A stretch of 64,000 nucleotides of DNA, taken from Thermotomaculum hydrothermale (lineage in GTDB: Bacteria; Acidobacteriota; Holophagae; Thermotomaculales; Thermotomaculaceae). The number at the start of each line of letters is the position of its first letter. The first letter of the stretch is position 1. A program made the translations under genes and the position numbers. The notes under the pieces were generated by a model. It was not told the DNA's origin. It saw nothing but the letters and a program-made list of their open reading frames with translations, and searched no databases. Positions 28,758 to 54,800 of this stretch are shown here, piece after piece. The DNA lies in assembly GCF_016592575.1 (NCBI RefSeq), contig NZ_AP017470.1, positions 2,118,501-2,182,500 on the forward strand, read 5' to 3'.

Positions 28758-31067
28758 TTACTCTCTTTTGATTTTTATGATTGTTTTGGCGAGGGAAGAG
28801 GAGGAGTCAACGGCGACTATTTTTAATCTGTCGGTTTTGGGGGTTATGAAGATTTTTTCTTCTGATTTTGTCTGGCCTATGAATTTGTCGTTAACAAACC
28901 AGTAAATTGTGCCGTCTTTTGTTGAGGTTGTTGCCTGGAGGGGTATTGTTTTTGAAAAGTTTACTCCCTTTGGTATTACTATGGTTGTGTCAGGGGTGGG
29001 GGATACAATTCTAACACTTCCCTTTGGAGATGAAATCCCGCAATTTTTCGGATATTGTGGCATAAATCCCCTGTGCATTATGAGAGAGACTAATGGGGGA
29101 AATACGAGTATTGTTTTTTCTTCCAACTCCCCTTCTTTGTAACTTTTTTCAGGGCAGGCAAGCTTTCCTGTTTTCTTTTCAAGGAGTACTTTTTTGTGAA
29201 ATTTGCAAAGATAGTATGGGTTTACTCCTTTTACAGTTAGTACTCTTTTTGTTTCAGGGCAGTTCCCGTTTGGCCTGAAGCCTGAAAATTTGCATACTTC
29301 AACCTCTTCAGTGTCTGCAATTCCCTTCCATTCCCAGTTAAGTTTTTCATTTGTTTTGTCTATTGCTTTTATTATGTCAAACATTACAGGGGATGCGAGG
29401 TTTGAACCAACAATTCCGCTTGCCCCCTTTCCGTCAAAGTTTCCAACCCATACCCCAACTGTGTACCTGTTTTTAAAGCCTAAACTCCAGGCATCCCTTC
29501 TTCCCCATGATGTGCCTGTTTTCCAGTAAATATCACCTTCAGGGAATACGAAGTTTTTTAATTCAGGTGCATCAGGCCTTCCCCTCTTTTTTAAAGCCTT
29601 TAAGGTTAGATAGCATGCCCCATACCTTAAAAGTGGTTTTCCTTTTTTAGCTTTTTCATCTTTTAGTATGCTCCAGGGTATAAATATTCCCCTCCTTGCA
29701 AGGGCTGAGTACAGGTTTGTAAGGTCTATTAGCCTTGTTTCCATTCCCCCTGTTATTATGGCAAGGCCGTATTGGTCTTTGTCTAACAGCCCCTTTACAC
29801 CACCTTTATATAGAAGGTTTACGAATTCTTCGTAACCTGTTCTCCTTAATAGAATTGCAAACGGCATGTTTAAAGAGAATGAAAGGGCATCTTCAGCCTT
29901 TATTAATCCGTGCCATTTGCCTGAAAAGTTTTTTGGGGAAAAGCCGTTGAGGTTGTATGGTGCGTCTTCAATTAAACTTTCAGTGGTAATTACTCCCTTT
30001 TGCAGTGCAAGTGCGTATAAAAATGGCTTTAGTGCTGAACCGGGGGAGCGGTATGCTGTAAATCCAATTACCTGGCCGGAGTTTTTTTTGTCAAAGTAGT
30101 TTAATGAACCGATTGCAGCAACAACTTTTGAGTTTCTGTTGTCAATTACAATTACGCTTGAGTTTGTTGCACCGTTTAAAAGAAAGTGGTATTTATAGGT
30201 TTTCAGTATTCTTTCACACTTTTTTTGAATGTTAAAGTCTATGCTTAAAACAATCTCTTTTTTTTCAGGATAGAGTTTTTTTGCATAGTCGCATATATGG
30301 GGTGCAAAGAATGGGAATTTTCTCTTTTTTTCAGGGGCAGGTATTTCAAAAGCCTTTTTGTATTCTTTTTTGGTTATCAGTTTGTGTTTAAGCATTCTTT
30401 TTAATACCTTGTCCCTTGCGTCTTTTCTCTGCTTTCTCCCCGGCATTCTTAAACTGGGAGATTGGGGAAGGCTGACTAAAAATGCAATTTCTCCAGGCAA
30501 AAGTTTTTCAGGGAGTTTGCCAAAGTAACTTAATGATGCTGCCCCCACTCCCTCAATGTTTCCCCCGTAAGGTGCAAGGTTTAGGTATAGTTCAAGTGTT
30601 TTTTTCTTTCCAAGCCTTAAGGTAAATTGAATTGCCCTGAAAATTTCAATTAGTTTTGAAGGTATTGTCCTCGGTTTTGGTTCTGCAATCCTTGCAAGTT
30701 GCATTGGTATTGTTGATGCACCGGATATGATTTTCCTGTTTTTTAAGTCAATGTATGCCGCTTTTAAAATTGATACAGGGTTAAATCCAGGGTGGTAATA
30801 GTAAAACCTGTCTTCGTAAACTATTGTTGTTTTTATTAAAAGAGGGTCAATTTTATCCAATGGGACGAATATCCTTCTCATTCCGTCTTTTGAGAGGTAC
30901 ACTCTCAACACTTTGCCGTTTCTGTCTTTAATTACTGTTGAATATTGAGGCGCAGTAATCTTTTCAGGCAGAGGAATAAGGTAAATTAGTGCAAAAAAAA
31001 GAACAAGGGGATATAAAAATCCCCTTAAAATTCTTGATTTTAAAACTTTTTTAAGTTTAAAAGCCAT
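28758..31067 (-). CDS. pbpC: Penicillin-binding protein 1C
   Basis: A 769-aa class A PBP. An N-terminal membrane helix (about 13-30) is followed by the family 51 transglycosylase (EDRFYYYHPGFNPVSILKA, ATIPMQLAR, LELYLNLAPYGGNIEGVGAAS). The transpeptidase has SALKPF as SxxK, SLNMPF as SxN and TGTSWG as KTG. A BiPBP_C domain with a cysteine-containing CxFSG linker is at the C-terminus. It polymerises and cross-links peptidoglycan in the periplasm. It overlaps the alpha-2-macroglobulin gene by 11 bases. This pairing is conserved in many Gram-negative bacteria and is thought to link wall repair with protease trapping. Confidence 0.94.
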   Translation of the reverse strand: MAFKLKKVLKSRILRGFLYPLVLFFALIYLIPLPEKITAPQYSTVIKDRNGKVLRVYLSKDGMRRIFVPLDKIDPLLIKTTIVYEDRFYYYHPGFNPVSILKAAYIDLKNRKIISGASTIPMQLARIAEPKPRTIPSKLIEIFRAIQFTLRLGKKKTLELYLNLAPYGGNIEGVGAASLSYFGKLPEKLLPGEIAFLVSLPQSPSLRMPGRKQRKDARDKVLKRMLKHKLITKKEYKKAFEIPAPEKKRKFPFFAPHICDYAKKLYPEKKEIVLSIDFNIQKKCERILKTYKYHFLLNGATNSSVIVIDNRNSKVVAAIGSLNYFDKKNSGQVIGFTAYRSPGSALKPFLYALALQKGVITTESLIEDAPYNLNGFSPKNFSGKWHGLIKAEDALSFSLNMPFAILLRRTGYEEFVNLLYKGGVKGLLDKDQYGLAIITGGMETRLIDLTNLYSALARRGIFIPWSILKDEKAKKGKPLLRYGACYLTLKALKKRGRPDAPELKNFVFPEGDIYWKTGTSWGRRDAWSLGFKNRYTVGVWVGNFDGKGASGIVGSNLASPVMFDIIKAIDKTNEKLNWEWKGIADTEEVEVCKFSGFRPNGNCPETKRVLTVKGVNPYYLCKFHKKVLLEKKTGKLACPEKSYKEGELEEKTILVFPPLVSLIMHRGFMPQYPKNCGISSPKGSVRIVSPTPDTTIVIPKGVNFSKTIPLQATTSTKDGTIYWFVNDKFIGQTKSEEKIFITPKTDRLKIVAVDSSSSLAKTIIKIKRE

Positions 31068-34000
31068 TTGCCTTTTTTACAATAACCTTTTGAGGTTTGC
31101 TCTTTCCGTTAACGAAAGGCTTGTACATTACACTTGCAGACGCTGGGGCAAGGTAAAATTCTCCCGGTGTTACCGCTCTAACTATAAGGTAAAGGGTTTG
31201 TGAGTTTTTTTCAATTGAAGAGAATACAATAATCTTTTCGTCCCTTATATCAATGTAATCAGGGCTAAATTCTGAGTAAGCCCATTCAGGAAGGTTTGCT
31301 GAGGTTAGCCTTGGGTTTTCAGGCTCCAATCCACCTGCAAGGGGTATTTCAATTGCGCAGTTTGGATAGTATTTGCTGCTGGTAAATGTTACTTTCAATA
31401 TGCCAAGGTCTCCCTGTTTTAAACTGTTGATTTTATTCCCTGTTTTGTAATCTAAAAGTTCTTCGCTTATTGTAACTCCGTTTGAGACAGCATTTTGCTT
31501 GATGTTTTTCCTGTATCCATTGTGCACAATTTCAACATAGAATGGGGTTTTGTTGCAGGAAACAACGATATCATTTTTATCAGGCAGATTGTATGCCCTG
31601 AATTTGTAAATCCCCTTTTCAAATTTGCCCTTTATGCTCTTCCCGTCTATTTTAAGCACTGCGTTAAAGGATATGTTTTCAACATTTTTCTCAACAAAGT
31701 TTCCAATTGCAAACATTGACCAGGCAATTTCCTGTGTTGTGTAATAGTAAAGCATTTCCCTCTTTGACAGGTCTTCTGCAAGGTTTTGTATTAACTTTGC
31801 AATTACATTTTTGTCGTAATTAATCTCTTCCCCAACATAGATTCTTACTGCCTCTCCTTTAAGGGGGGTGTAAAAGTCGTCATATAGCCTCTCTTTTTGG
31901 TCAGGCTGTAAATATAAGTCTTTTTGATAAAGGAGGTTTGCAAAATCACTGTTGCCGCAATTGTAAAAGGTTGCCGCATACCACATTGTGGTTGGGAAAT
32001 CTAATTTTTCGTTTGTTACAATGTTTTCTAATTGCTGGAGTAAGGACGGGTTTTTCTGCAACCTTCCGGTTTTTGAAAGGACATAATAGCCTAACGGCGG
32101 TATTGAATCAAGGCTTTGAATGTAATTTAATGCAGCGTCTATTGAGGATTGAGGCACTGAAAAGCCAGAGTTTTTTGCTTCAAGTAAAACAAGGGTTGCG
32201 TAAGCGGTTGCCCATCTTTCAGGTTCTGAACCCCCTGGCCAGTATGAGAATCCACCTGAAAATGTTTGCATTGAAAGGATTTGTCCTATTCCGTTTTGCA
32301 CATACTCCCTGTACTTTTCAAGGGTGATTTTTTCGTCAATAAACGGCAGAAGTTTTTTCAGTTTTATCATTGCAAATGTTTTTGTTGACACCTGCTCAAT
32401 GCAGCCGTAAGGATATCCTAAAAGCATTTTTGTCATGTACAATTTGCTTAATCCTGGGATTGTTGAAACATAGATTTCTCCCTCATAGCCCAATCCAACA
32501 TAGTTTTCAAAGTATGGTTTTATATTCTGTTTGTTTGTGTTAACAGTTAGGGTTTTTGTTTCAACTGTTTTTGCAGTTGCAGGGAATAGGGGTATTTTGA
32601 AGTCTTCTGAGTACTGCTTTTTATTTTCTGCAAATACAGATATTGATATTTTAAAACTGCCTAACTTTTCTCCCGCAATTAGCGGTATAAAGATTGTCTT
32701 TTTCCCCTGCGGAGAGAGGGTAAATTCTTTGCTGAATTCAGGGATGTTGGCATTTGTTATCTTTGCCTTTAACTTTCCCTTAATAATGCTGTCTTTTGTG
32801 TTTATAAGGGTTACAGGGATTTGGAATTTATCCCCCTGTGTTAAGAACCTTGGAATTGTGGGGGTTGCAATTATGTCTGATTTTACAGTAACATACTTTG
32901 ATATTCCCCCTAACTTTTCCTTTGAAACAGCGGCAACCATAACCCTTAATTTTCCATTGTACTGTGGGATTTTTACTTTGTACTTCAGGTTTCCGTTGCT
33001 GTCTGATTTAAGTTTTCCACTCCATATTGACACAATCTTTGTAAATTGCGGCTGTGCAAAGCCCTTCTTTTGAGGTGCACCTTCGCCACCGCCTGTTGCA
33101 AGGTATTTTTTTATTAGCCAGCCGAAACCGTCTGCACTGTCAAGGCCTAATGCAATAGGCCTCATTACCCCATCAAATGGATTTGGGGATTTAAAGTTTG
33201 TAATTTGAAGCACACCCTCATCAACGATGGCAATTGTTGCTTCAAATTGAGCGTCTCCCTTTAAGTTAATTGTCATGTAATTTCCAGGTTTAAGTGTTTT
33301 AGGCGTATCTATTTTTAAGTCTAATTTAAATTTTTTCGGAGTAATCTTTACCCTTTTTACCCCATAAGCCCTTTCAACAAGGTAATTGTCTCCTGTATGA
33401 ACAAGCAATGCGCTGACATAAACGCAGGGGTAACCTTCTGGGATTTTAAATTCATAGGTTGATACCTTGCCCTTTGCCTCTTGCCATTTGTATTCAATTA
33501 TATTGTCTGCTTCAACTGTCCAGAGTATTTTTCCCTCAAATGGAATGGCTGTTTTTATAGTGGCTTTCTCACCGTAATCGTATTGTTTTTTGTCAGGCTG
33601 AATAATAAGTGTTTCAGGGGTTTCAGCCTGTTCATTTCCCCACCATCCCCAGCCGCTTACAAATAACTGGGCAAAGTTTTCACTTCCCCTCACCTCAATT
33701 ACAATGTCGTCGTAAGATGTTTGAGGGGTATAGGTTATTTCAAATTTACCGTTTTTTGCTGTTAATTCTTTCTCTTTTGTTAGAGGGATTAATGTTGAGT
33801 TTTTTCTCCATGAGAATGAATCATAATAGTAATAACTGTAATTGTATGCAACCCTGTAAATTGTATATTTGAGTTTTTCGTCTTTTGTTAGGGTTTTACC
33901 GTTTTTTGAAACAATAACACCTTTAATTTTTAGAGGCACTCCAGAGGTTACCTTTGATGCGGTGCAGTTTAACCCAATGTAATAGTTTTTCGGATAGACA

Positions 34001-36390
34001 ACTTTATTGAAAACCTTTTTTGTTACCCTTCCGCTTCCTGCTTCGCTAACCTCTAAATAGGCTTTAATGTTTACAGGGTTGTGAAAATCAGGTAAAGGTT
34101 TAATTTGTACTTTGATATTTGCCTTACCGTTTTTGTCAACCTTTATAGGAGATATGGTTTTATTAACCTTTGATTTTTGGTAATAGTATGGCAGAGGTCC
34201 AAATGAATAATTCCGGTACCCTTCCGGGGAAAATGGTATTTCTTCAATGGAAATTTCCCCCTTTAAGGTTTCTCCGCTTGCAGGTGCACCAAAGAGGTAA
34301 AATGCTTCTGTCTCAATTGTAAAAGGTTGTTTAAGGTTTATCTTTTCAGGGAATTTTGCCTTTATGGTCATTCTTTCAGGGGCAAAAGCCTCTATAAATG
34401 CAAAGGCAGAGTAAACCTCTTTGTCTGCAACAAAAAGGCTAAATCTGTATTTCCCTGTTGAAAAGGATGGGGAGGTTTTAAACTCAAACTCGCTAAACCC
34501 GTTTTCATCTGTAACAGAGTTTAATTCTTTAACCTTCTTTCCCTCAGGGTTTGTTATTACAACTTTAACAGGTATTGAGAGGGGGTTATAGGTTTTATTT
34601 TTTCTTATGATTACTCCAAAGTGTACCTTTTCCCCCGGCCTGTACAAATCCCTTTCAAAGTAAAGGTATCCGATGTAATCCCTTAAAGATGTATCCCCTT
34701 TAATATCAAAGTTTGAAGTGGGAAGCATTGAGTCCCCTAATTTCAAGTAATTCCAATCATTTTCCGTTTGTGCCGTAATAAGGTAACTTGATTTATCTCC
34801 TCCAACATTTATTGATGCAAATCCTTTTGAATCTGTAACTGCTCTTCCCTTTTCAATGTTTGCATTGTCAAATACTATGATTTTTGCGTTTTTAACTGGA
34901 GATGCATCATTGGAGTTTACAACAAACACATTTACATACTTTTCGTTCCACTTTGCAATAATTGTTATGTTTGAGATTGTGAATTTTGTTTTATCCCTGT
35001 AATACCTGTCTGTTTCATTTGAATAGGATTTTGCCTTTAAAACATAGATTCCCTTTTCAACCTTGGGAATGAATTTTTTTAAGTCTATGAAGTATAGCCC
35101 GCTTGAGTTTACCGGGATTTTAATTTTGTAATCTGATTTAATTAACTTTCCAAAATAATCAACATCCCAGTAAGATGCACCTGTGTAAGAGTACCATGTT
35201 GTTATATTTTTAGGTGGGATAAGGTAAAGATCGCATTTAACCTCTTTAAGCCTTTTAGCAACGAGGGGGAATTTCCATGCTCCCTTTGTACCAAAATACC
35301 TTCCCTTGTATAAAAACATCAATTTTGGTTTGTGGTTGGGGATTGAGACAGTTGTCCTATAATCATTTTTTAAAGTTTCTCCGTTTGTCCCGGTTAACCC
35401 TGAAAAAAGTATAACTGTGTAATTTTCCCCCGGCTTAAACTTTCCTGTAATGCTTAAATTTCCCTTTGTAGGATATGCGGAAAATTCAATTTCAGGGGAT
35501 ATGGTAATTAAGTTTTTAATAAACTCCTTTTTTAAGGTTACAGGCTTGTTTTTTAAGGTTACCAATCTAAAATTAATTGAATACATATCTCCAAGGTCGT
35601 TAACCCTTACCTTCTTTATAAAGATGGGGAGAGAGGGGAATCCTGCGGAAAATTTTATAGTGTAATCTCTTGATGTTTTAAAACCATCAAGGGATTTAAT
35701 TCCCTGTTTAAATAAAATAGTGTATACTCCTGCTTTCTTGATATTAAAAGTTAAAATCAAAGTATCCTTGTTTGTTTCTCCATATTTGGTAAGGTAATTA
35801 ACGGAATAAATTTCACAATTAGTACCGTTTTTGTCTCTTATTTTAATAAAGTTTTGGATATCTGAAATGTTTACAGAAAAGTTAAACCTTACCTTTATCT
35901 TTCCCTTCCCATTTTTAGCACTTAAAGCGGTTACTGAAAGAGGTTTTAAAGCCGGTGTTTTAAAAGAGAATTTTTGAGATTTAAACTTAAGATTCAACTT
36001 TCTTTTTAAGGGGATTTTTTTTACAAAAACTGTGTACTCTGTGTCTGGAGAGGGTTTTGAAAGTAATTTTAAATAGAATGTGTTTGAGTTAAGCCATTTT
36101 CCTTCTGTTTTTAAAGAGGGTTTTATCTCTATGAAATTACTAATCTCTCTTTTGTCTATAATTACACCAGAGGTTCCAAATATAGGCTCTGAAAAGTAAA
36201 TTGTTAGATTTTCAGGGAAGTAATCTAAATCTCCATAAGGCTCAAGTTTGGCTTTCACATTTATTGCTTTGCTTTTTAAATTTTTAGGTTTTTTATAAGT
36301 TTGTGGTTTTTTCCTTTCCGGTAATAAGATTTTTACCCCTGCTATAATAACCACAATTAAAACAATCCAGATAAAAAGTTTTTTCTTCAT
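31057..36390 (-). CDS. Bacterial alpha-2-macroglobulin, membrane-anchored
   Basis: A 1777-aa protein of the YfhM type. It carries MG/macroglobulin beta domains, the A2M signature region (RPGEKVHFGVIIRKN in the N-half; FAQPQFTKIVSIWSGKLKSDSNGNLKYKVKIP near residue 1100), and an intact thioester motif YGCIEQ near residue 1329. The alpha-alpha toroid and receptor-like domain follow. It traps proteases by covalent thioester attachment. The N-terminus is a single hydrophobic helix (residues 5-23) with no lipobox cysteine, so it is probably tethered to the inner membrane rather than a lipoprotein as in E. coli. It is upstream of and overlapping pbpC. Confidence 0.92.
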   Translation of the reverse strand: MKKKLFIWIVLIVVIIAGVKILLPERKKPQTYKKPKNLKSKAINVKAKLEPYGDLDYFPENLTIYFSEPIFGTSGVIIDKREISNFIEIKPSLKTEGKWLNSNTFYLKLLSKPSPDTEYTVFVKKIPLKRKLNLKFKSQKFSFKTPALKPLSVTALSAKNGKGKIKVRFNFSVNISDIQNFIKIRDKNGTNCEIYSVNYLTKYGETNKDTLILTFNIKKAGVYTILFKQGIKSLDGFKTSRDYTIKFSAGFPSLPIFIKKVRVNDLGDMYSINFRLVTLKNKPVTLKKEFIKNLITISPEIEFSAYPTKGNLSITGKFKPGENYTVILFSGLTGTNGETLKNDYRTTVSIPNHKPKLMFLYKGRYFGTKGAWKFPLVAKRLKEVKCDLYLIPPKNITTWYSYTGASYWDVDYFGKLIKSDYKIKIPVNSSGLYFIDLKKFIPKVEKGIYVLKAKSYSNETDRYYRDKTKFTISNITIIAKWNEKYVNVFVVNSNDASPVKNAKIIVFDNANIEKGRAVTDSKGFASINVGGDKSSYLITAQTENDWNYLKLGDSMLPTSNFDIKGDTSLRDYIGYLYFERDLYRPGEKVHFGVIIRKNKTYNPLSIPVKVVITNPEGKKVKELNSVTDENGFSEFEFKTSPSFSTGKYRFSLFVADKEVYSAFAFIEAFAPERMTIKAKFPEKINLKQPFTIETEAFYLFGAPASGETLKGEISIEEIPFSPEGYRNYSFGPLPYYYQKSKVNKTISPIKVDKNGKANIKVQIKPLPDFHNPVNIKAYLEVSEAGSGRVTKKVFNKVVYPKNYYIGLNCTASKVTSGVPLKIKGVIVSKNGKTLTKDEKLKYTIYRVAYNYSYYYYDSFSWRKNSTLIPLTKEKELTAKNGKFEITYTPQTSYDDIVIEVRGSENFAQLFVSGWGWWGNEQAETPETLIIQPDKKQYDYGEKATIKTAIPFEGKILWTVEADNIIEYKWQEAKGKVSTYEFKIPEGYPCVYVSALLVHTGDNYLVERAYGVKRVKITPKKFKLDLKIDTPKTLKPGNYMTINLKGDAQFEATIAIVDEGVLQITNFKSPNPFDGVMRPIALGLDSADGFGWLIKKYLATGGGEGAPQKKGFAQPQFTKIVSIWSGKLKSDSNGNLKYKVKIPQYNGKLRVMVAAVSKEKLGGISKYVTVKSDIIATPTIPRFLTQGDKFQIPVTLINTKDSIIKGKLKAKITNANIPEFSKEFTLSPQGKKTIFIPLIAGEKLGSFKISISVFAENKKQYSEDFKIPLFPATAKTVETKTLTVNTNKQNIKPYFENYVGLGYEGEIYVSTIPGLSKLYMTKMLLGYPYGCIEQVSTKTFAMIKLKKLLPFIDEKITLEKYREYVQNGIGQILSMQTFSGGFSYWPGGSEPERWATAYATLVLLEAKNSGFSVPQSSIDAALNYIQSLDSIPPLGYYVLSKTGRLQKNPSLLQQLENIVTNEKLDFPTTMWYAATFYNCGNSDFANLLYQKDLYLQPDQKERLYDDFYTPLKGEAVRIYVGEEINYDKNVIAKLIQNLAEDLSKREMLYYYTTQEIAWSMFAIGNFVEKNVENISFNAVLKIDGKSIKGKFEKGIYKFRAYNLPDKNDIVVSCNKTPFYVEIVHNGYRKNIKQNAVSNGVTISEELLDYKTGNKINSLKQGDLGILKVTFTSSKYYPNCAIEIPLAGGLEPENPRLTSANLPEWAYSEFSPDYIDIRDEKIIVFSSIEKNSQTLYLIVRAVTPGEFYLAPASASVMYKPFVNGKSKPQKVIVKKANGF

Positions 36391-36539: not shown

Positions 36540-38720
36540 CTACGGTCGAATGGAGAGGCCTAAAATAGCATAGTAATTTGTTCCCTCTAAATCCTGTATA
36601 TAGATTATCGGGTTCCTGAAATGGACATATCCAACGGTAGCGGTAAAGTAAAGGTTTTTGTCAAGCAGGTAATCAAAATCAAGTTTGCATTGAAACTCCC
36701 TGTTGTCATGGTTTGAATACTCGTTGAAATCACTTAAATCTACATAAACCGCACCTTCACCGTTTGCGTAACCCTTAAAGTCTGAAGTGTCAAAATTGCC
36801 TTTCCCTATAACATAGTATGCGCTTGCATATATGTTTAGTCTGTTAGTGGCCTCAACAAAATAATTTATTCCTATTGAGTGAACCTGTTCGTCGTAGGGC
36901 TCCTTGACATTTAATGACCCGTGGTGGTAAACAAGCTCTCCGGTGTGGAGTTTACCGTCAAAGAGGGAAAGAAAAGTCCTTGTGCTTGAATCAAAGTAGT
37001 TGTAATACAAGCCTGCCTGCCAAGAATTTGCCGAATATGAAATGTTTAAGGTTCCTGAAAATGTGTCATTTGCCCAGTGAGTATCGTCGTTTGAGCTGCC
37101 TGTAAAGTCTATAATTGTTGAGATATTCCAATTGTTTGTGGGATTGTATATTACCCTTACCTCTCCAGTGTTACTTGAATCAGGTTCACTTGTGAGTGGA
37201 GAACGGGTTGTTTTAAAAAAGTTTGAATAAATTTCATGAAGGTATTCTTCTCCGGCTTGTTTTTCCAGTCCTCCGTAAGGGTTTTCAAATGGGTTGTCAA
37301 TTGATTCTCCAATATACTTTAATTGCACTCTTAACTTTTTGTTAAACCTTGTGTTAAAGCTTACTATAAATTTATTTACTGTAGTCTCATCGTTTAAAAA
37401 GTGGTCTCTGTCAATCCATTTCCCTTCCCAGCCGACTCTTAGCCTTGACCTTGAAGTCAATTTATATTCAAAATCAAGGGTTCCTTTATCCTCAGTTCTG
37501 CTTAATGCCGAGTAATAGAATTTGTCAGGGTAATAATACGGGTCATTCTCGGTTATGTACTTAGACAGGGCTTCAATTTGAGCAAAGTATATATCGTCGT
37601 TGTCAATGTTTCTGTGGTTGTATTTAGCCTGAAAGGTGAGTTTTTCAGTTAGGTAGGTTGAAAGGTTTGCTCCGGCTGAGGTGTTTTCTATCTCAGCATT
37701 ATTATGCTCGTTGGTGTTTGAAGAGTATAGCCCGTAAAAACTTAATTTTGTATACCTGCCAATCCTTGAAACAATCCTCAATTCGTGGAGTTGTTTGTGT
37801 GTGTTTGGTATTAAATTAAAGGGCAGAGTCTCGTCTTTGTAAGTTCTTTTGTCAGAAAATGAGGGGGGTAAATTTGTAATCCATGTGTCAAAGTAATTTG
37901 GGTCAGGATTTGTTGTTGGGCCTTCGTAGAAGTTTAAGGGGGCATTTGCTCTATTTTCAAAGTCTCTGTATGTAAATTTGTAACTTATAGTTGTATGTTT
38001 CATCTTGTATTCTAACTTTGCGGTATAGTCTTGAGTTACCTCATTTATTCTCTGGCTGTGGCTTGAAACATGACAGGTCAAACACATGTTAAATGAAATT
38101 GCCTGCTTATATCCGCTTTTCTCTTCAACCCTGAATCCAGCCTCTCCTGACAATCCTTTAACCTTATTTGAGGAAAACTTGAATAATGCTTCCGATACGC
38201 TTCTATCAATTGAGTACTGGGCGTTTGCATCGTAATCGGTGGTAAATACCTTTCTTGCCGGAGGAAGCCCTTGCACCTCGCGTACATTTTTTACAGGGTC
38301 ATGGTCAAGAGTATGGGGGAGTTTGTTGTATTTAAATTTTGCCTTTATTTTTCCCTTGTAATCGATTGCCCCTTTCAAATTCTGTTCATGGGAATTATCG
38401 TATTCCCCTGTTAATTTAAGGTAAATCCCGTTTCCAAGTCCTATAAGTCCGAATGCTACTCCAGGCTGAACATTGTCCTTTACATCGGTGTATTCGCCAA
38501 CCATATTTGGAGAGTCTTCAAGATACGAAAACTTGGTAAAAATCTTTGCTTCTTTTACTTTAATTTTTATTTTGTCCTTTTTATTTACTGTTGTTTCACT
38601 ATTTGTTTCTTCTTTTTTGCTTCCCTTCTCTTTTATAGGGTTTGCAAATGCAAAGTTAATGAATACAATCATCACTATCATTAAGCAGGTTTTAAATATT
38701 TTTTTTCTTTCTTTAATCAT
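36540..38720 (-). CDS. MtrB-like outer-membrane barrel carrying one c-type heme motif
   Basis: A 726-aa protein with a signal peptide (hydrophobic about 10-26, FAFANP). A charged KE-rich linker is followed by a large barrel of alternating strands with long acidic turns, ending in YYAILGLSIRP. Residues 213-217 read CLTCH, a c-type heme-binding motif, followed by HVSSHSQR; this is the only CxxCH in the barrel. It lies 22 bases after the decaheme cytochrome gene. That order and size match MtrA-MtrB or porin-cytochrome complexes, in which the barrel sheathes the cytochrome and lets electrons cross the outer membrane. Known MtrB/PioB proteins have a CxxC pair instead, so the heme motif is unusual. 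Confidence 0.68.
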   Translation of the reverse strand: MIKERKKIFKTCLMIVMIVFINFAFANPIKEKGSKKEETNSETTVNKKDKIKIKVKEAKIFTKFSYLEDSPNMVGEYTDVKDNVQPGVAFGLIGLGNGIYLKLTGEYDNSHEQNLKGAIDYKGKIKAKFKYNKLPHTLDHDPVKNVREVQGLPPARKVFTTDYDANAQYSIDRSVSEALFKFSSNKVKGLSGEAGFRVEEKSGYKQAISFNMCLTCHVSSHSQRINEVTQDYTAKLEYKMKHTTISYKFTYRDFENRANAPLNFYEGPTTNPDPNYFDTWITNLPPSFSDKRTYKDETLPFNLIPNTHKQLHELRIVSRIGRYTKLSFYGLYSSNTNEHNNAEIENTSAGANLSTYLTEKLTFQAKYNHRNIDNDDIYFAQIEALSKYITENDPYYYPDKFYYSALSRTEDKGTLDFEYKLTSRSRLRVGWEGKWIDRDHFLNDETTVNKFIVSFNTRFNKKLRVQLKYIGESIDNPFENPYGGLEKQAGEEYLHEIYSNFFKTTRSPLTSEPDSSNTGEVRVIYNPTNNWNISTIIDFTGSSNDDTHWANDTFSGTLNISYSANSWQAGLYYNYFDSSTRTFLSLFDGKLHTGELVYHHGSLNVKEPYDEQVHSIGINYFVEATNRLNIYASAYYVIGKGNFDTSDFKGYANGEGAVYVDLSDFNEYSNHDNREFQCKLDFDYLLDKNLYFTATVGYVHFRNPIIYIQDLEGTNYYAILGLSIRP

Positions 38721-38742: not shown

Positions 38743-39630
38743 TCAACGGGTTAAGGCTGAGCCGCCGTTGGTTTTAAGGGTTGATGGGAAATCTGTTCCG
38801 TGTATTGCCGGGTGGCAATGTGTGCATGCAGACGACGCTATTCCTCTTACATCCAGGTGTTCTCTTATCTGGAAGTGTACATGATGGCATTGGAGACATA
38901 AAAAGGGTTCTGTTTTCTTTAAAAGGTTGTTTACAAGGGTGCCGTGGGGGTCGTGGCATATAGTGCAGTCTTCAACAACAGGTGCGTGTTCGTAAGTAAA
39001 AGGCCCCTGTTTGTCTGCATGGCACTTAAAGCATAGGTCGTTTTTTCTCTCGCTTGTTTTAAGGTTGTACTCCTCTCCACCGTGAGGATTGTGGCAATCA
39101 AGACAACTCATTTTGTTTTCTTTTACAGGGTGGTGAGAGGGAAGGTTAAACTTTGCTTTAATGTCCATGTGACATGAGTAGCATAGTTTGTCGCCTTCTT
39201 TTTTTAAGCCGTAATTGCCTCTTTTTGTGTGAATTTTGTGGCATGCTGTGCAAGAAACCCCGTTTTTAAAGTGCTCAGTATGAGGCCAGTCTGCAAAGTC
39301 AGTGTCTAAATGGCATTTTAAGCAAATTGAAGATACTTTTTCAGGGCTTAATTTTCTAAAAGAGTAGATATCCTTTACTTCATTTGTTTCAATGTGTATT
39401 GACCCCGGGCCGTGACAGGATTCGCAGCTTGCAAACTCTTTTGAATTGGTATTTGTTAACATGCCATGGGCAGTAAATTTAAATGAATCATAAATTTCCT
39501 CATGACAATCCGCACAGGCTTCAGAGCCTACATATTGAGGCATATCTTTTTCTTGTGCCTTCAATGTTAGGGATGAAGCCGCAAAAAATACCATGAAGGC
39601 AAGTAGGATAGGTAACCACCTAACTTTCAT
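38743..39630 (-). CDS. Decaheme c-type cytochrome, MtrA/DmsE-like
   Basis: A 295-aa exported protein with a signal peptide (to about residue 25) and exactly ten CxxCH motifs, at residues 39, 69, 103, 127, 150, 176, 200, 222, 245 and 269. Distal histidines are plentiful (HTEHF, HHPV, EHAP). Size, heme count and spacing are those of the MtrA/DmsE/PioA family: periplasmic heme wires that plug into an outer-membrane barrel. The next gene is such a barrel. No outer-surface MtrC/OmcA-type or inner-membrane quinol-oxidising partner is adjacent. The tail after heme 10 is short. Confidence 0.86.
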   Translation of the reverse strand: MKVRWLPILLAFMVFFAASSLTLKAQEKDMPQYVGSEACADCHEEIYDSFKFTAHGMLTNTNSKEFASCESCHGPGSIHIETNEVKDIYSFRKLSPEKVSSICLKCHLDTDFADWPHTEHFKNGVSCTACHKIHTKRGNYGLKKEGDKLCYSCHMDIKAKFNLPSHHPVKENKMSCLDCHNPHGGEEYNLKTSERKNDLCFKCHADKQGPFTYEHAPVVEDCTICHDPHGTLVNNLLKKTEPFLCLQCHHVHFQIREHLDVRGIASSACTHCHPAIHGTDFPSTLKTNGGSALTR

Positions 39631-42885: not shown

Positions 42886-45800
42886 ATGAAAAAAGTCACT
42901 TTTCTGTTCTTTCTTTTTTTAAGCCTTAATGTTTTTGCGGCTGTCAGTGTTTCTTTTACCCAGCAGGCAACAAGTTTGTCAGAAGGGGAAGAGGGTACCT
43001 GGGAAGTAACAGTTCAAAATCCTGATTCGTCAGATGTTGTTACAGACATAGTCGTCACAGTACCAGACGATTTTACCGTTACCGATACCGGCGGTGGGAC
43101 ATTGAATTCAGGTCCTCCGCAGACAATAACCTGGAGTTCAGTTACAGTTCCTGCAGGTGGCAGTTACTCTGTGAGTTACAAAGCAAGGCCAAACTGTGGG
43201 TGCTCAAACGGTGAGGTTATGCAGGCTGATGCAGGGGGTTCAACTGCATACTCTTCACAGATAGAAGTAAAGTATTCCTTTCTTGTTGTGGGAATTTCGC
43301 CGGAGACACAGGATGCATATGTGGGAGATACAGTTAGTTGGACAATTACAATTGAAAATACAGGAACTGGAGATATTGTAAACGGTGTCAATGTAACTGA
43401 TACATTAGGTTCAGGCTTTACATTTCAATCAATTACAGGCCCAAATGCTCCATCTGATGTTTCAAACCCATGGAATACAGGTCCAATAGCAGCAGGTGAC
43501 TCTGTTCAATATACATTAACGGCAACAGTAACAGGTTGTGACCCTGACACTTTAACCAATGTTGTTTTGGGCGAGTTTACCGACGGGACAAATATCTGTC
43601 AGTCAAAGAGTGTTACAGCAGGTGTTAAAATCCTTGTAAGAAAACCTGATGTTAGCATTAATGTTGGCGGAGCAACAACACTGTCATACTGTGACCCAAC
43701 TCAGAATCAGGTAACAATTACAATTGACAATACTAATGGAGAAGGGCCTGCTAAAAATTTTAAACTTCAAATGACTGGGCTTGTTTCAGATTGGCAGGTT
43801 TCAAATGTAAGTGGTGCAACCTTTGATTCAAATACAGATACCTTTACTGTTGGGGATATTGCAGCAGGGGATAGCGTTTCTTTTAGTTTTTATTTAGGTC
43901 CTGATGGCACACAATGCGGTTCAAATATAACAATGAGCGATAGTATTTTGTATAAGCCAGACTATGAGGATGAGTGTGGAAACCAGTATACACCACCCTA
44001 TGCTGGGCCTGTTACATACACTGTTGACCAGGGAACAAGGCCGCACTTTGAGGTATCAAAGTCTGGTCCTCGCTATGCAGATAGGGGAGAGACGGGATTA
44101 CAGTATACTTTAACAGTTAAATTTGTCGCTCCTTCAGACTATGGCTCTGTAACAATTGACATTACTGATGATTACCCTGATAGCGCTCAAACAGGGTTAA
44201 CTGACGGCTTTGTTGTAACAGACCCTGCCGGTGGTTCTGATGATGGGGATAAAATAGTATGGAGTGATGTTACATTTAATCCAGGGGATACCTGGACAAA
44301 AACAATAACAATGACTGCCCCAACCGACAAATGCGCACCTGGGCACGATTACACAAATATTTTGTCAATAAGTGCAGTAAACCTTACAGATTGTCTGGGA
44401 TGCCCTTATACTGTTACAGGAGAGGCTTCTCAAAATACCTATATTAACCAGCCTGATGACCCAGCTATTTCTGATTCATCAAAAACAGTAACCTATATTG
44501 ATTCTCCTACCGGCGTTGATGCGGCTCAGGTTTGTACAAATATCCAATACACAACATGCTATACATTTTCAAGCAATACTTCTCCTTCAAACTGGCAGGG
44601 GATAATCTTTAGTGACGACATGCCTCACCAGAGTTATGTATCTGTTGATTCTGTAAAGGTAAACGGTACAGAGTACTCAAACTATACAGTAACAAATACT
44701 TCACCTTTACAAATTGACTTAAGCGGCCTTGACAGTGAGGGTGCTCCTGCCCCAAATACGGGCGCAACACTCTGTCTTACCTTTACATTACATGCTGACG
44801 AACCAGCCTGCGGTTTTATTGATTTTTCTGGGTTGTATATTCCAAGTCAATCTTCAGGTTGCTCTGATGATGACGATTATGACCAGGGAGTTATTGTTAA
44901 TATTAGCGAAAATAATCTTGCTTTAGATCTTTCCAACTCTCCAAAAATTGTTGATACATGCGATATTCAGCAGTATAGAATTGACCTTGTTGGTGGGGGG
45001 GGATGTTCAGGTGATGTATGGGATTTATACGATTTAATTTTAAATGTAAACACAAACAATCACTATACCCTTGTTTTAGGTGACTCAAACTATCCTGTTG
45101 AATTTCACAATGTGGTTGATACATTGGGAAATACAATTAATTCATTTGACCCAACTGACAACGGTGACGGAACATATACCTGGAATTTAGGTGATATTAA
45201 GCATAATGTTAATGGGAACACACCATACATAACCTTTTATATGAAAAGGGATTGTGATGCAACTCCAGGCACGGAAGGCTGGAGCGCAAGTGCACAGTAC
45301 AACAATAGGTGTGATAATGACAGCGGCAGCAGAAATAAGTCAGCTTCTGCAAATGCAAATATTTACCTTTTAAATAAAGCAAACCTTGTATTAAAGATGT
45401 CTGCTGCTAAATACACCACTTACACCCCGTATCCTGAATTTATTGTTCAAATTATCAATTCAGGGGCAGGTAAGGCGAACGATACTGAATACAAAATAGA
45501 TTTTGGTTCAGGCTTAACATACTGGGATTACAGTGTTGATACTGGACAAACACCTGTTGTTACAGGCAATCAGGGGGATAGCACTGTAACCTTCCACTGG
45601 GACACATTGTCCCCAAACGAAGAGGTAAGGATTAAGGTTAGAGCCCATGTTGTTGGTTGTGACAACTTAACATTAGACGGGACATTAACCTGGTGCGACA
45701 CAGTATGTCAGACTGTAACAGCCCATTCAGAGGTATTGTTGCCTTTGAGTGATCTGGCAATTACTCAGCATACAGGAGAACCGATTGATTCTTGTGGCTA

Positions 45801-48800
45801 TAAACAATCAAGTTTTACCATTTTGGCAAAGAATACTGGTGATACAGATGTTTTTAATGTCCATGTTTTAGAAGAATTGCCGGACGGAATAGGATATGTT
45901 GCAAATAGTGCTTCATATACAATTACTTCATCTTACGGTAATTCAAGCGGTTCATTAGAGCCAACAGTTAATGGGCAGACCCTTGATTGGGATTTTTCAT
46001 CCCTGTTAGGGACAAATCCAGACGGAGATAAGGCACTTGAACCTGGTGGTACCATTGAGATTACATTTAGTGTTGAAATGATTGATTGTACAAATTTCCA
46101 GAATTCAACAAAGCAGGCAAGGGCAAGTGCAGAATATGATAAACTTTGTCAGGCAAGCTCAGGAACTCCTGATTCCCTTTCTCCTTTGTTTATAATTACT
46201 GTTAATCCAACAAACCCTCATGTAAGAGTTGTAAAAGAGGCAAGGAATATTACAAAAGGCACAGATTGGGTTACAGGAGAGGTTGATGCTGATAGTGGGG
46301 ATACTGTTGAGTGGAGAATAACCTATACAAGTGATGGGGATTATGTTGCGATAAACACTGTTATTAGCGATACCTTGCCATCAAATGTAACCCTTGTTTC
46401 AGGCTCATTTTCTTCAACTTGTTCCACATGTAATGAAACAGATTACTTTGGAAGCGGGTGTTCAATTGGGGATATGAATATAGGTGACTCATGTACAGTT
46501 ACCTATCAGACAACTGTTGACACCTGCACCTCAAGCCCAACAACAAATACAGCAAAGGCTGAGTACGGGTGTGATTGTTACAGGGTTTCTAACACAGATA
46601 GTGTAGATTTAAGAACAACACCGGAATTGCCTAACAATCAGGTTGAAGTAACTCACTCAGGTTTTACCACCTGTGGCGGCCAGATTACCATAACCATTAC
46701 TAACAACGGTGGTACAGCATACAATGACGGAATTACTGAAACTTTGCCTCCAGGTTATGTTTACGATTCTTCAGGCGGTTGCAATATAAGTTTTTCAAAT
46801 ACTCCACCAGGGGTAACCCATGGCAGTGGTATACCAAACTGCACAGGATTAACAGATGGGGCTTCAACTTTAACCTGGGATTCTACAAATGTTGATTTTA
46901 TTGCCCCTGGAGAGACATTAACCATAACATTTTATGTAAAAACAGATGGCACCTATTGTGATACAACATCTTCAAATGATAGTAATAACCCTGATGTTTC
47001 AATTCCTAACCTTACAAATTCGGTTAGTTTTGATTACCATGATTCATGCAGCAATAACTATAGTTCATCAGGCTCAGATACAATTAATCCTACTCAACCA
47101 GATATAGATATCTCTATAACTCCTGATAAGCAGATTGTTGCAGAGGGGGGAACTGCCAACTGGACTATTACCTTAACCAATAATGGAGATGCACCAGCGT
47201 ACAATATAACCTTAACAGATACTCTTGGAGACGGTTTTTCAAATATTACTGATGACCAGTCAGGAACCTGGAGTGGCAACACAGGAACCTGGACAATTTC
47301 AGGGCCAATTGCTCCAGGTGATACATGGGTTGTTCATGTAAGTGCAACGGTAAATTCAGGCTCACTTTTAAACCATGCAGTTGTTGAGGGGATGTGTAAA
47401 GACCAGGGAGGGAGCGATACCTGTTCCTATACCCACGACGAGGCAGATGCTTACACTGCAGGATTTGAATTAACAAAGACAGTTGATAAAGCAACGGCAA
47501 ACATTGGTGAAGAGTTAACCTATAACATTGTTGCAAGGTTTTTAAATACAGATACCTTTAAATCTGTAACAATAACAGATACCCTTCCACCAAATACAGA
47601 TTATGTCTCAGCAACCCAGAATGGTGGGGATTTCCCATTAGCTCTAACTATAAATGGACAGGTTCTAACCTTTAACCTTGGCGATTTTCAGGGGTTGAAA
47701 GAGTTTAATTACAATATTAAGGTAAGAATTAAAAATGTGTCTGACAATGCAAGTGGAACTATTTTAACAAACAATGTGCAGGCTGATTTTGGTATTGATT
47801 TTGACGGTGACGACAACGCAGATGCATCTTTTTCTCAGAACGATTCTGCACAAACGACATTAACGGAGCCAAACCTCTCCATTACAAAATCAATAAATCC
47901 CCACACAAACCTTCAGTCAGGTGATAGTGTCACAGTTACCCTGAATGTGACAAATAATGGAGACGGCCCTGCATATAGAATATCTGTAACAGATTTGTTA
48001 AACGATACAAACGGAGATGGCTTTGTTGATGCAAATGACACAGTTGTTTACGATTGTTCGACAATAGCAGAGGGAACAACCCCCGCCGGTTACACCTTTA
48101 GCGTAAACGGTTCATCCCCTGCCTGTGAGGTTACTTACACCTCAGATGGGCCTATTAACCCGGGAGATACTGTAACATTTACTTTTACTGTTAAGATAAG
48201 TCAGGATGCAATAACAGGTTCAACCTATACGAATACTGCAAGGGTAAGCGGCTGGTCATTGGCATCTTCTGATAGTGAATCAGGAAATACTTCGTATGAC
48301 AGGGAAACAAACGGGGCTGGAAGTTACAATATTAGTCTTTCCCGTGGTTCTGTTCAGAGTAAAAACTTGATTTCAACCTCTGAGGACTCAACAGATTCAG
48401 GGGATGCAAATATTAACAGCAATCCACCTGTTGCTGTTGGAGAGGTTGTAGAGGTTGAAATTACTTATTCAATCCCGCAGGGTGTAACAAATAATGTCAG
48501 GTTGTATGACAGGTTGCAGAATGCTATTTCAAATATATCGTGGGGCACCTATGTCCCAGGAAGTGCAGAACTTGCGAGAACTTCAACAGCATTAAGTTGT
48601 ACTGACAACCCTGGGGATATAAACAATGCACCTGTAAATACATTTGTTAATGTTGACTCTAATATCTCCACAAACTCTAATTCAAATTACTATTTTATAT
48701 ACCTTGATTTAGGGGATGTTACAAATTCAGACAATGATTCAAATACAAGTGAGAGGTATATTTTCAGGCTAAAGGTGGTTGTAAACAACAACACTTCAAC

Positions 48801-51800
48801 AAATGCTGGAACTTTGCTGTATGACCAGGGCAGGTTGAGATATCAGGATGCAGATGGTTCAAATCATTATGTGCGTACTTCAAATGTTGTAATGCATGTG
48901 GCAGAGCCAACTCCAACTATAACCAAAACGGCAAATCCATCAGTTGCGTCTGGTGGAGATACAATAACCTTCACTTTGCAGATTTGTAACACAGCCTCAG
49001 GTTCAAATGCAGCAAGTGCTTTTGACTGGGTAATAAATGACCCGCTTCCATCTGAATACGAGAATCCACAGGTTACAAATGTTGACACAGGAAGCACAGG
49101 GGCAAATGTAAGTGCAAGTTTTACCGGTAATACATTGAATGCATCAATAGACCAGCTTGACCCAGGTGAGTGCATTACAATAACCTATACCGCACAGTTA
49201 AAATCTGATGTTCAGTATGGGCAGGTTGTAACCAACACTGCAACATTTCAGACAACAAGTTTGCCAGGAGACCATGGTACTGGTAATGCAACACCGGGAA
49301 ATCCGGGAGAGGAAACAGGAGAGAGAACAGGAAGCGGAAACGGAGTAAACGATTTATACGGACAATCTTCTGCAATTGTAACAATAAACAGGCCATCATT
49401 GGCAAAGGATATTGTAAATTACAAGTCATACTATGCTATTGAAGAAAAACCGCAGTTTAGAATTACAATCAGTGTGCCGGAAGGCTCTTCCAATAATTTT
49501 GTTGTAACAGACCAGTTACCTTCAGGTTTGACCTTTGTATCAGGCAGTTTGAATGTAACATTGTCTTCTGGAATAACAAGTTCAAATTCACCGGATGAAA
49601 GCAATGCAAACTTCTTTAGTTACGATACAAACAATAATGTTTTAACCTTTGATTTTGGCACATTAACGGCTCAAAATGCAGGGGATATTACAATTGATTA
49701 TACAGTAAATGTTGATAATGTGCTTTCAAATCAGGATGGTGTAATTCTTCAAAATACAGCTACATTAACCTTTGATGACCCGAATAATGCAGGAAATACA
49801 ATAACTGTTGGGCCTGTAAACAATGCTCACAGTGTAAGGGTTGGAGAACCTAACCTTGAGATTTCAAAAACAATTACTCAAGGTGCAGTTGGTTCTGAAG
49901 CAGGGGATACTGTTTCCTGGCAGATAGATATTGCAAACAATGGGCACACAACAGCATATCAGGTTGATTGGAGAGATGTGCTTCCTGATGGGTTGTACAA
50001 TATTTCCAATGCCCATGTAAGCGTTTCTGGGGGCAATGTTTACCTTAATGGAACAACAACCACAGTTTCAGACTCTAATTTGCAGATAACAACAACTAAC
50101 AACAACAACGACACAATTTCTATTGAACCGGTTGAAATTGCCCCGGATGCAACCTTAACCATTACCTTTGACAGCGTGCTTATGGATAGTGTTGTGTTTG
50201 GAGAAACACTAACCAATGAAACAAGTGCAAATTACACAAGCCTTGTAAATGGTGGTAGGGACAATTCAACAAATCCAGGAAGTGTTGATGACGATGACGA
50301 TAGCGATTTAAACAACTATGAGGAGAGCGCAAATCAGAGTTTAACGGTGGCCTCAGACATTGCAATTGACAAGCGTGTTGATAAAACTCAGGTTACAATT
50401 GGTGATACTGTAATTTACACCATAAAGGTTGATGTAATTGAAGGTGTAACACCCAATGTAAGTGTTCACGATATACTGCCATCAGGATTAACCTATGTAA
50501 ACCACTCAATATCTCAAGGCCATATTGGAATGAACTTTACCAATGCAAATTACAATACAAGGCTTGGTACAGGGCAGGAAGTTTACTTTGATTTTGGAGA
50601 TGTTGAGAACCCTGCAAACAATTCAAGCACAGATGATTACTTTGAGATTGAAATTGTTGCAAGGGTTGATAATGTTGATGCAAACCAGGATGGAGTGGTA
50701 TTGAAGAACGGAGAGCAGTTAGAGGGTTCTGAAGTTTATGTTGAATATGGTGAGGATACAAACAACCTTTCAAGGCTTGATTACGATTACGATGCAACAC
50801 AATCTGGAATTCAGGGAATACCTGTAACAATTGTTGAGCCTGAATTAACAATAACCAAAACGGCAGACAATACAGAGCCACCATTAGGTTCTATAATTAC
50901 CTTCACAATTACTGTGTCTCACACATCAAACAGCCATAGCGATGCTTACGATGTTGAAGTAACAGATGTATTGCCAAACGGATTAACATTTGTTGATTGC
51001 AGTTTACCTTCTGGAAGTTACAGTGTGAATGGTCAGAACCTAACCTTTACAAAATCAAGTTTAACTATTGGTGCCCCTGACAATGGTCAATGGCAATTTA
51101 CTTACAGGGCAAAACTAAATGGAGATGTTGCGGTAAATACTGTATTAACAAACGATGCAACAGTAACCTATAAGTCAATAACAGGTGCAACAGGGGCAAG
51201 CGATAGCGGAAGAACGGGAGACGATTGCGGGAATGCAAATGCACTTAACGATTACTGTGCAAATACAAATGAAAGTGTTACTGCAACAGCATACACCTTT
51301 ATTGATGCGCAAAAGACGGTTGATTTGGTAAACGATGCGGATGGCGATGGAACATATACCCCTGGAGATACAATTGAATATACAGTAACCCTTAAAAATA
51401 ACGATGGAGATTTAACAGGGGTTCAATTTGTTGATGATTTACCGTCTGAAATAACCTATGTTGCTGGAAGTTTAACAACAACTCAAGGTTCAGTAGATGA
51501 TTCAGGTGCACCTCATCTTGTTGTAAATGTTGGGGATATGGCTTCAAATGCAACGGTAACTCTTACATTCAGAGCCACCATAAATCAGGGTGTAGCAAAC
51601 GGGACAACAATTTCTAACCAGGGGTATGTTGAATCAGACCAGACAGTTCGTGAATATACCGATGAAGACGGGATAGATTCAAACGGTGACCAGCCAACTG
51701 ATGTGGTTATTGGCGGTCAGGATAAGGAATACTCATTGTATGTCTGGAAGTTTGTGGAATTGTTAAGCGACAACGACAGTTCAGACAGTATTACAGCCGG

Positions 51801-54800
51801 GGATACAATGAGGTATTACTTTGTATTCTATAATGAAGGCAACAAACCTTTAACAGGAGTTACTCTCTCAGATGTGATACCTACAGGTTTAACCCCTGTT
51901 GGTGGAAGTGAGTATGTATCAAGCGGAAATATATCCCTTTCAGGCAACAATATCAGCGTATCTGGAATGAGTATTGCCGTTGATGATTATGAGTATGCAA
52001 GCGTGGATGTTACAATTAACAACCCGCTTTATGACAGTGACGGAGACCCGAGTACTGAAACATTTGTAAATCAGGGAACAGCAGATTCCAATGAAACAGA
52101 CTCTGTATTAACAGATGGAAACGGTGATTCAACTGACGGTTATCAGCCAACCTCTTTCACTGCAACAGATGGAAGCCCGGCACAACCTAACATTGATGTT
52201 GAAAAGAGGTGGAGTTTATTGGTTGACAACGACAGTGACGGAATTGTTGACCCGGGAGATACAATAAGGTACACCATCTATGTATACAACAATGGTGCAG
52301 TGGATGCGGAAAATGTAAGGTTAAGCGATAATATTCCTTCAAATACAACACTTGTTTCAGGCAGTGTTACCACTTCACACGGTGTGGTTGTAACCGAAAA
52401 CCCTGTTGATGTAAACATAGGAACAGTATCTGCAAGCAGTGTTGAGATTGTTACTTTTGATGTGGTGATTGATTCTAATGTTGCAGATGGAACTGTAATT
52501 CAGAATCAGGCAAGTGTAAGCGGAGACAACTTTAATACTGAACAAAGTGATGATAATGGCAATGACGATGACGGTATTAACCCAACATTAACCCCTGTCT
52601 CAACTGGCACATCAGGTGGAAATTATCCTTACAATTTTGAAAAAACTTTGTATGGAACCTCCTTAGCCGATACCTCAGGGTTGAATGTTGCAATTGGAGA
52701 GGTTGCAACATTTAGAATGTCATTTAATCTCCCGTCAGGTACCGTTAATGAGGTTGCTATAGTTGATACCTTGCCTCAGGGGTTAAACTATGTTGCGGGA
52801 AGTGCAAGGCTTGCAAGGATATTTGACACAGGGTTAACTTCCTCAATGAATCCAGGGGATATTAACAATGCCCCAAGTGGAAGCTTTGTATCTCTAACAG
52901 ATGGAAATGACATTGAAATAAATGGTTCACAAATCAGGCTGTTCTTTGGCGATATAACAAACTCTGACAACGATGGAAATGCTGAGCAGTATATACTTGA
53001 AATTCAGGCTATTGTTGATAATGTAATGTCAAATCAGCAGGGAACTGTTTTAACAAACAGGGCGGTATTAACATACAAGGATGCACTTGGACAGCCTCAA
53101 TTATTGCCAGAGCAACGGGTCAGCCTGAATGTTGTTGAGCCTGATATTGTGGTTAATAAGGAAGCAATAAGCGGCGGTGTTGGAAGCACTCACGGTGACA
53201 CTGTAAGGTTCAGGATTACTGTTTCAAATTTAAGTGGAAGTGCTTACGCATACAATGTTAATTTAAGCGATGTAATTCCACACGAATTTTTAGGCGCACC
53301 GGATGGAAGCGGAAGCGGGGCAACAAAGATTACAAATATTGCACTTTCTACATCTGGTGGTGTTGTGGTAACTTCAACTGGCCAGCCTGTGACAAATAGT
53401 GATGTTGTAATACTCTCAACAGTTGAAAATGGAGACACAATAACTCTAAATCCGTTAACTTTACCGCCAAATTCAAGCTTTACAATTGATTTTGACACTG
53501 TGGTTCACAACGATGCAGACTTAGGCTCATATGTTACAAACACTGCAAATGTTGATTACACCTCGCTGCCAACCGGTGGAAGAGACGGAAGTGATGGAGA
53601 AGGCGGTTTAAACGATTATGTAGCATCATATTCCCTCTCAATTCAATTATGTGCTGATTTGTACATTACATCCACTGCTGAGAATGGTACAATTCAGCCT
53701 TCTTCAATCAGATGTTGTGACCCTGCCGGTACATATACAGTTTACTTTGAGCCTGACGATGGTTACCACCTTGCAGGAGTTTACATCGATGGAAAGCCAA
53801 GTTGCTTCTGTCCAAAGATGAGGAGTTTTACATTTGAAGGTGTTTCCACAGACCATACTGTTCACATAGTTTTTGTTAGAGATGAAAACCCTGTAATTAA
53901 CTCATTTACTGCAACTCCATTAAGTGGCATTGCCCCCTTGAAGGTAGATTTTAGTGTTGAGGCATACGACCCGGATGGTGCAAATTGCAGAGATATTAAA
54001 GAGTATAGATGGGATTTTAATAATGACGGAGTAATTGATTTGACAACAATTGAGCCTAATGCAAGCCATGTTTATGCCCTCGAAGGTGTTTACACAGCCG
54101 TTGTTTATGCTGTGGATGAGGAAAACGCAATTACAGAATCCTTCCCGATTACAATTAAGGTTACAAGACAAAACCCTGTTGGGTTAAACGGTGCACTTTT
54201 AGGCTCTCAGTCAACAATTAGCGGCTTTGATATATGGGCTGTAAACAACAATCCTTCAGCTGCTTCTGTTACAATTTCTCTGGTTGACATAAAGGGTAAA
54301 GCACTTGGTGAAAAAACAATTGAAATCCCGCCTTTTGGTAAGAGAAAGTTAAAGTATGATGGAGATTTGAACGAAGCTTCAAGATTGGTTGTAAATGCAA
54401 ATCAAAAACTTACTTACTATGTTGATAAAAAGGCTGATAAAGTAGAATCTACATCTTACCTTGGTTCGATAACTGGTGAGAGATTGATAATTCCTCATGC
54501 TGCTGAGGAAAAGGAATACTGGGATTCAAAAGCCTATATTGCTACTGCTGATAATGATATTTTGAAGTTAACTCTGTCAGATGAGAGTGTGGTTACTGAT
54601 AAAGATTACCTGCACATTGTTGATTTAAATAATTTAATTAAAGAAAATCAGGATGTTTCAACATGCTGGGGTTTAGTTGAGTTTGGTGACACCTCTCCTT
54701 TCAGCACATTGAAGCCGTTAAGCGGATTTATTTCTTTCAAGAAGAAGAATTGCGACGGTGCATTTGTTGAAATGCCGTCAAAAGGCTATTCTTCCTGCAT

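Follow-up and report, generated by a model that had tools for sequence, protein, structure and literature searches.

The window, a 64-kb stretch of an acidobacterial genome, contains on its minus strand a gene for a decaheme c-type cytochrome and, directly downstream of it, a gene for an outer-membrane barrel of the MtrB/PioB type (Table 1). The cytochrome carries exactly ten CXXCH motifs, and no other multiheme ORF was found in the window. Its score against NF041028 ("GSU2203 family decaheme") is 385.1 bits and thus above the cut-off of 325. The barrel matches Pfam PF11854 (MtrB_PioB) with 54.1 bits (gathering cut-off 23, E = 1.4e-14) and stays narrowly under the curated cut-off of 350 bits of NCBIfam NF041027 ("GSU2204 family CXXCH-containing (seleno)protein", i.e. 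OmcL of Geobacter), with 335.6 bits in hmmscan and 337.1 bits in the genome search, the match covering positions 32-580 of 580 (E = 6e-100). Its CXXCH falls in the alignment column of the family motif, shared with 101 other barrels, and it adjoins a GSU2203-family decaheme, but it lacks the optional trait of the family, a selenocysteine (Sec) or Cys at DGU[AG]G. Further ORFs nearby are one of 1777 aa that lies 150 bp downstream of the barrel gene (31057-36390, minus strand), looks alpha-2-macroglobulin-like by eye and has no NCBIfam match, and one of 4183 aa (42886-55437, plus strand) with many repeats of a conserved surface domain, DUF11-like by eye.

Table 1 Features of the barrel/decaheme locus (positions in the window).
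Feature	Position	Strand	Basis
Decaheme c-type cytochrome, GSU2203/OmcK family, MtrA-like, ten CXXCH, 22 bp upstream of barrel	38743..39630	-	NF041028
MtrB/PioB-type outer-membrane barrel, 26 strands (predicted), GSU2204/OmcL family, Sec-less divergent copy, 726 aa	36540..38720	-	PF11854, NF041027, AF2, PDB fold match
CLTCH, putative heme-attachment motif, residues 213-217	38070..38084	-	translation; 102/102 conservation; hairpin 7/8 tip
Extended beta-hairpin, strands 7 and 8, residues 190-239, CXXCH at predicted extracellular tip	38004..38153	-	DSSP of AF2 models
Near-invariant His136, candidate for the sixth heme ligand or for another role at the extracellular rim	38313..38315	-	100/101 in family; end of strand 5
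FDGKLHTG, residues 587-594, strand 21/22 tip; family Sec position (DGU[AG]G), lost here	36939..36962	-	alignment

The first-pass annotation had singled out CLTCH as the sole motif of its kind in the 726 residues of the barrel, followed directly by VSSHSQR. The minus-strand translation bears out both statements, and the interval 38068-38090 given at that time brackets the motif. The mature chain contains three Cys, two of them inside CLTCH, and the number of CXXCH motifs expected from the composition of the barrel is 0.00035.

In order to assess the conservation of the motif, we aligned 102 barrels drawn from 297 same-phylum genomes and from 80 named loci, the latter retrieved via a decaheme alignment. 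A protein-only contig scan retrieved no relatives, either with the window barrel or with the barrel alignment as query; the window barrel missed them because its conserved stretches are too divergent, whereas the decaheme alignment succeeded. Since 72 of the barrels were fetched by the decaheme search and not by a motif search, the unanimity of CXXCH in the named loci is no selection effect. That the phylum is Acidobacteriota is indicated by two of its barrels, L007 and L017, which match the named Acidobacteria records L112 and L130 without a difference. The family barrels were found directly downstream of a GSU2203-type decaheme, and none of the 102 lacks either Cys or the His of CXXCH, at an identity of about 20% and with a freely varying XX pair. 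The following residue is V, I or L in 100 of the 102 barrels. Before the motif, 93 barrels have K or H and nine have M or Q, the window barrel being one of those with M. Other conserved sites are G203 (102/102), H136 (100/101), Q206 (100/102) and D141 (95/101). The conservation among homologues on which the earlier proposal of a barrel heme had been made to depend is therefore complete. Given the low expectation from composition and this invariance in otherwise divergent barrels, CLTCH is, on sequence grounds, not a chance occurrence and is a fixed trait of the family rather than a one-off.

The premise that MtrB/PioB barrels have no CXXCH does not hold, since NF041027, with GSU2204/OmcL, is a named CXXCH-bearing family; the motif in a barrel of this type is thus an already known trait, and the family is uncharacterised. 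In Geobacter sulfurreducens, GSU2204 carries the annotation 'cytochrome c family protein, putative'; it was up-regulated together with GSU2203 with hematite and magnetite (PMC4070692), and a 2026 review counts the GSU2204 family among the selenoproteins without a function (PMC13188914). The window pair resembles OmcKL of G. sulfurreducens (GSU2203/GSU2204) in having a decaheme and an MtrB/PioB-type barrel in the same order and a single CXXCH at the aligned position of the barrel. It differs from the family in its sub-threshold, Sec-less barrel and in a decaheme without the insertion between hemes 9 and 10 of most Sec members.

The window barrel sits on a long branch (1.71 changes per column). 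Its best identity, 27%, is to a barrel from a Desulfofervidaceae MAG (L081), which also has Met before CXXCH and no Sec and whose decaheme is the closest to that of the window (51% in the best segment); their grouping has no support in the tree, where the window barrel falls in no supported set comprising up to half of the rows. Through this MAG, whose sequences were those compared with the window, the pair can be likened to OmcKL of Candidatus Desulfofervidus (HotSeep-1, bacteria that partner methane-oxidising archaea; HS1_RS02760/02765), the expression of which in methane-oxidising partnerships was reported to be four-fold above that of the OetABI conduit (PMC10553843). A barrel of the window type was not found in eight other genomes of its family, seven of which have the Sec paralogue. 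The window barrel was probably acquired horizontally or is evolving fast. One could go further and regard it as a decaying, horizontally acquired paralogue in which the motif is a mere remnant. The long branch, the low identity, the loss of Sec, the score under the NF041027 cut-off and the absence from the same-genus and same-family genomes searched would fit, but the reading frame and the signal region are intact, the motif and H136 are kept, and the decaheme partner 22 bp upstream retains all ten CXXCH, which makes decay very improbable.

The structures of the window barrel and of a second barrel encoded in the same genome (see below) were predicted with AF2 from alignments of 23 and 58 rows, respectively, with Sec entered as Cys in the latter. 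The window model has a pLDDT of 78.6 and a pTM of 0.74, the paralogue model a pLDDT of 87.2 and a pTM of 0.82. Both have 26 strands, the number found in MtrB (PMC7198977), and for both the closest solved fold is MtrB (6r2q_B; TM 0.73-0.74 of the target). The window pair thereby resembles MtrAB of Shewanella (6R2Q), a 26-strand barrel around a decaheme, as its best structural match; the Shewanella system differs in having MtrC as a separate surface cytochrome, and the sequence similarity to MtrB is confined to the middle part. In both models long loops follow the odd strands and short loops the even ones, so that, by standard porin topology, the odd strands are expected to end outside. Three sites are accordingly all predicted to be extracellular: the CXXCH at the tip that strand 7 leads into, H136 where strand 5 ends, and the Sec site, which follows strand 21. 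In the AF2 models, hairpins 7/8 and 21/22 exceed the adjacent hairpins in length and, being 14 strands apart, lie approximately opposite each other. In the paralogue model, which is the better one, CXXCH forms a helical turn; confidence is low at the hairpin tips (pLDDT below 50 at residues 212-215 of the window model).

The main rival to a covalent heme is a structural or redox disulfide formed by the CXXC, with no heme attached and with the His kept for other reasons. CxxC barrels without heme are known in the MtrB group, and the N-terminal CxxC of Shewanella MtrB reportedly has been proposed to form such a disulfide. To our knowledge, MtrB itself has no CXXCH. The low-confidence position of the motif at a hairpin tip would suit a disulfide, and so would the failure to find an exclusive distal ligand. 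For the latter, the first-pass annotation had looked to the histidine in VSSHSQR, H221, which is ruled out by its lack of conservation, other barrels having Q, K, R, N, Y or E at this position. Apart from H217, the only near-invariant His of the family is H136. On the other hand, a disulfide leaves unexplained why a His immediately follows the second Cys in all 102 barrels; the predicted position on the extracellular hairpin 7/8 differs from that of the N-terminal CxxC of MtrB; and the barrel is always beside a ten-heme cytochrome, so that the heme-attachment machinery must be present. Altogether we consider a disulfide unlikely.

Further comparison was possible with 20 additional loci of the same phylum with weak profile matches, most of which have a recognisable barrel adjoining a decaheme (L161-L180). 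These PioAB-like conduits resemble the window pair in their composition and in mostly having no adjacent surface cytochrome, but they have no Sec, with no in-frame TGA in the matched barrel ORFs of the 20 loci read, and no CXXCH, with the exception of one barrel with CDNCH (L164). About half of the barrels without CXXCH have a His at the position of H136, which is therefore older than, or independent of, CXXCH; H136 is thus ruled out as a ligand unique to CXXCH barrels, and no second His is kept uniquely with the motif. The sister barrels also speak against the suggestion that the motif makes up for the lack of a surface cytochrome: since the two-gene conduits without CXXCH mostly lack an adjoining one as well, such conduits do not in general need an extra exit heme, and CXXCH as a strict substitute is rejected.

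Most family barrels seem to end near profile position 580, where the apparent stop is an in-frame TGA in DGU[AG]G, and about 140 further in-frame residues complete the barrel. Among the 102 barrels, 75 have Sec at this site, four have Cys, 15 have neither and eight lie on truncated contigs, leaving 94 that could be graded. The window barrel belongs to those with neither. Its own genome (2.32 Mb, one contig) encodes a second barrel copy, located at C1:1588252, that has CDSCH and an in-frame TGA and scores 388.3 bits against NF041027, above the cut-off of 350. A tRNA-Sec match of 76 bits is present in this genome as well. One Sec and one Sec-less copy in a single acidobacterial genome make a natural comparison pair. 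The second copy is part of another OmcKL-type pair (C1:1587829-1589919, minus strand; L001, L032) with the TGA in IMDGUGGAV and a decaheme upstream, and gene annotation would take the 563-aa ORF ending at this TGA for a truncated protein. Located 17 nt downstream of the TGA, a stem with a GGU loop is kept in three relatives, its fold z-scores not being significant.

On the tree, the difference between Sec and no Sec requires at least four changes, and all 15 barrels with neither Sec nor Cys keep CXXCH. Of 76 Sec/Cys barrels, 75 have K or H before the motif; of 13 without Sec/Cys, six have another residue there, a difference that comprises only two to four independent pairs. Other multiheme genes are nearby for six of eight Sec-less barrels vs five of 27 Sec barrels (Fisher p = 0.006), largely because of one clade. 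Genes for 12-16-heme and 14-heme cytochromes lie upstream of the Sec-less OmcL-type barrel/decaheme pair in L107, L119 and L131. The partner decahemes of the Sec type have the insertion between hemes 9 and 10; that of another Sec-less barrel (L029) is short, like that of the window.

These data bear on a different reading, in which CXXCH and the Sec hairpin together form a catalytic or metal site at the surface, e.g. for thiol or selenol chemistry on extracellular substrates, with the window copy keeping half of it. Sec occurs only in CXXCH barrels and not in the matched barrels of the CXXCH-less sisters, four barrels have Cys in its place, and both sites map to the extracellular side in the models. 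However, CXXCH is invariant in the 15 barrels without Sec or Cys across at least four changes on the tree, which argues for a role independent of Sec, and H217 would need a separate explanation; such a site therefore seems quite improbable to us.

One covalent heme best explains why C-X-X-C-H is strictly kept next to a decaheme, in a family that takes its name from this motif. We therefore favour, with a probability of roughly two in three, an OmcKL-type outer-membrane electron conduit whose barrel would carry one c-type heme at its outer mouth. The decaheme would be threaded through the MtrB-like barrel of 26 strands. Bound at the tip of the extended hairpin formed by strands 7 and 8, the barrel heme would pass electrons, as an eleventh step, between the decaheme's outermost heme and external acceptors or donors, a task that in Shewanella falls to a separate protein, MtrC. 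Having lost Sec, the window copy would work as a plain conduit. The motif, its strict conservation and its pairing with the decaheme are observed, the barrel fold and the extracellular position are predictions, and heme attachment, the ligands, the distance to heme 10, and electron transfer and its physiological direction are what we infer here. The eleventh heme as an exit step, as originally proposed, is consistent with the strict conservation of the motif and with its predicted place at the extracellular mouth, where an exit heme would be useful. The question addressed is how two-gene conduits without a separate surface cytochrome hand off electrons outside; if the barrel does carry the last heme, the sheath is part of the wire.

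The most interesting part may be that in most relatives the heme motif shares its predicted extracellular face with a Sec that has been catalogued without an assigned function. It is conceivable, if rather unlikely, that the heme and the Sec on the hairpin about opposite in the ring meet over the mouth of the decaheme, with Sec acting as a heme ligand or as a terminal catalytic residue; Sec-less copies such as that of the window would then be the electron-only version of a selenium-tuned port.

A search of the genome of the window yielded no OmcA/MtrC-family genes above the cut-off; several other multiheme clusters are present and could supply surface cytochromes. A possible third conduit (L078:3886-8435, minus strand; C1 ~1120885-1125434) consists of a 623-aa protein without CXXCH or family match, followed by a ten-heme DmsE-like cytochrome and a seven-heme protein. 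Another cluster (L079; C1:1362000-1381900) encodes multiheme proteins with 13, 11, 7, 5 and 4 CXXCH motifs, interleaved with motif-less proteins.
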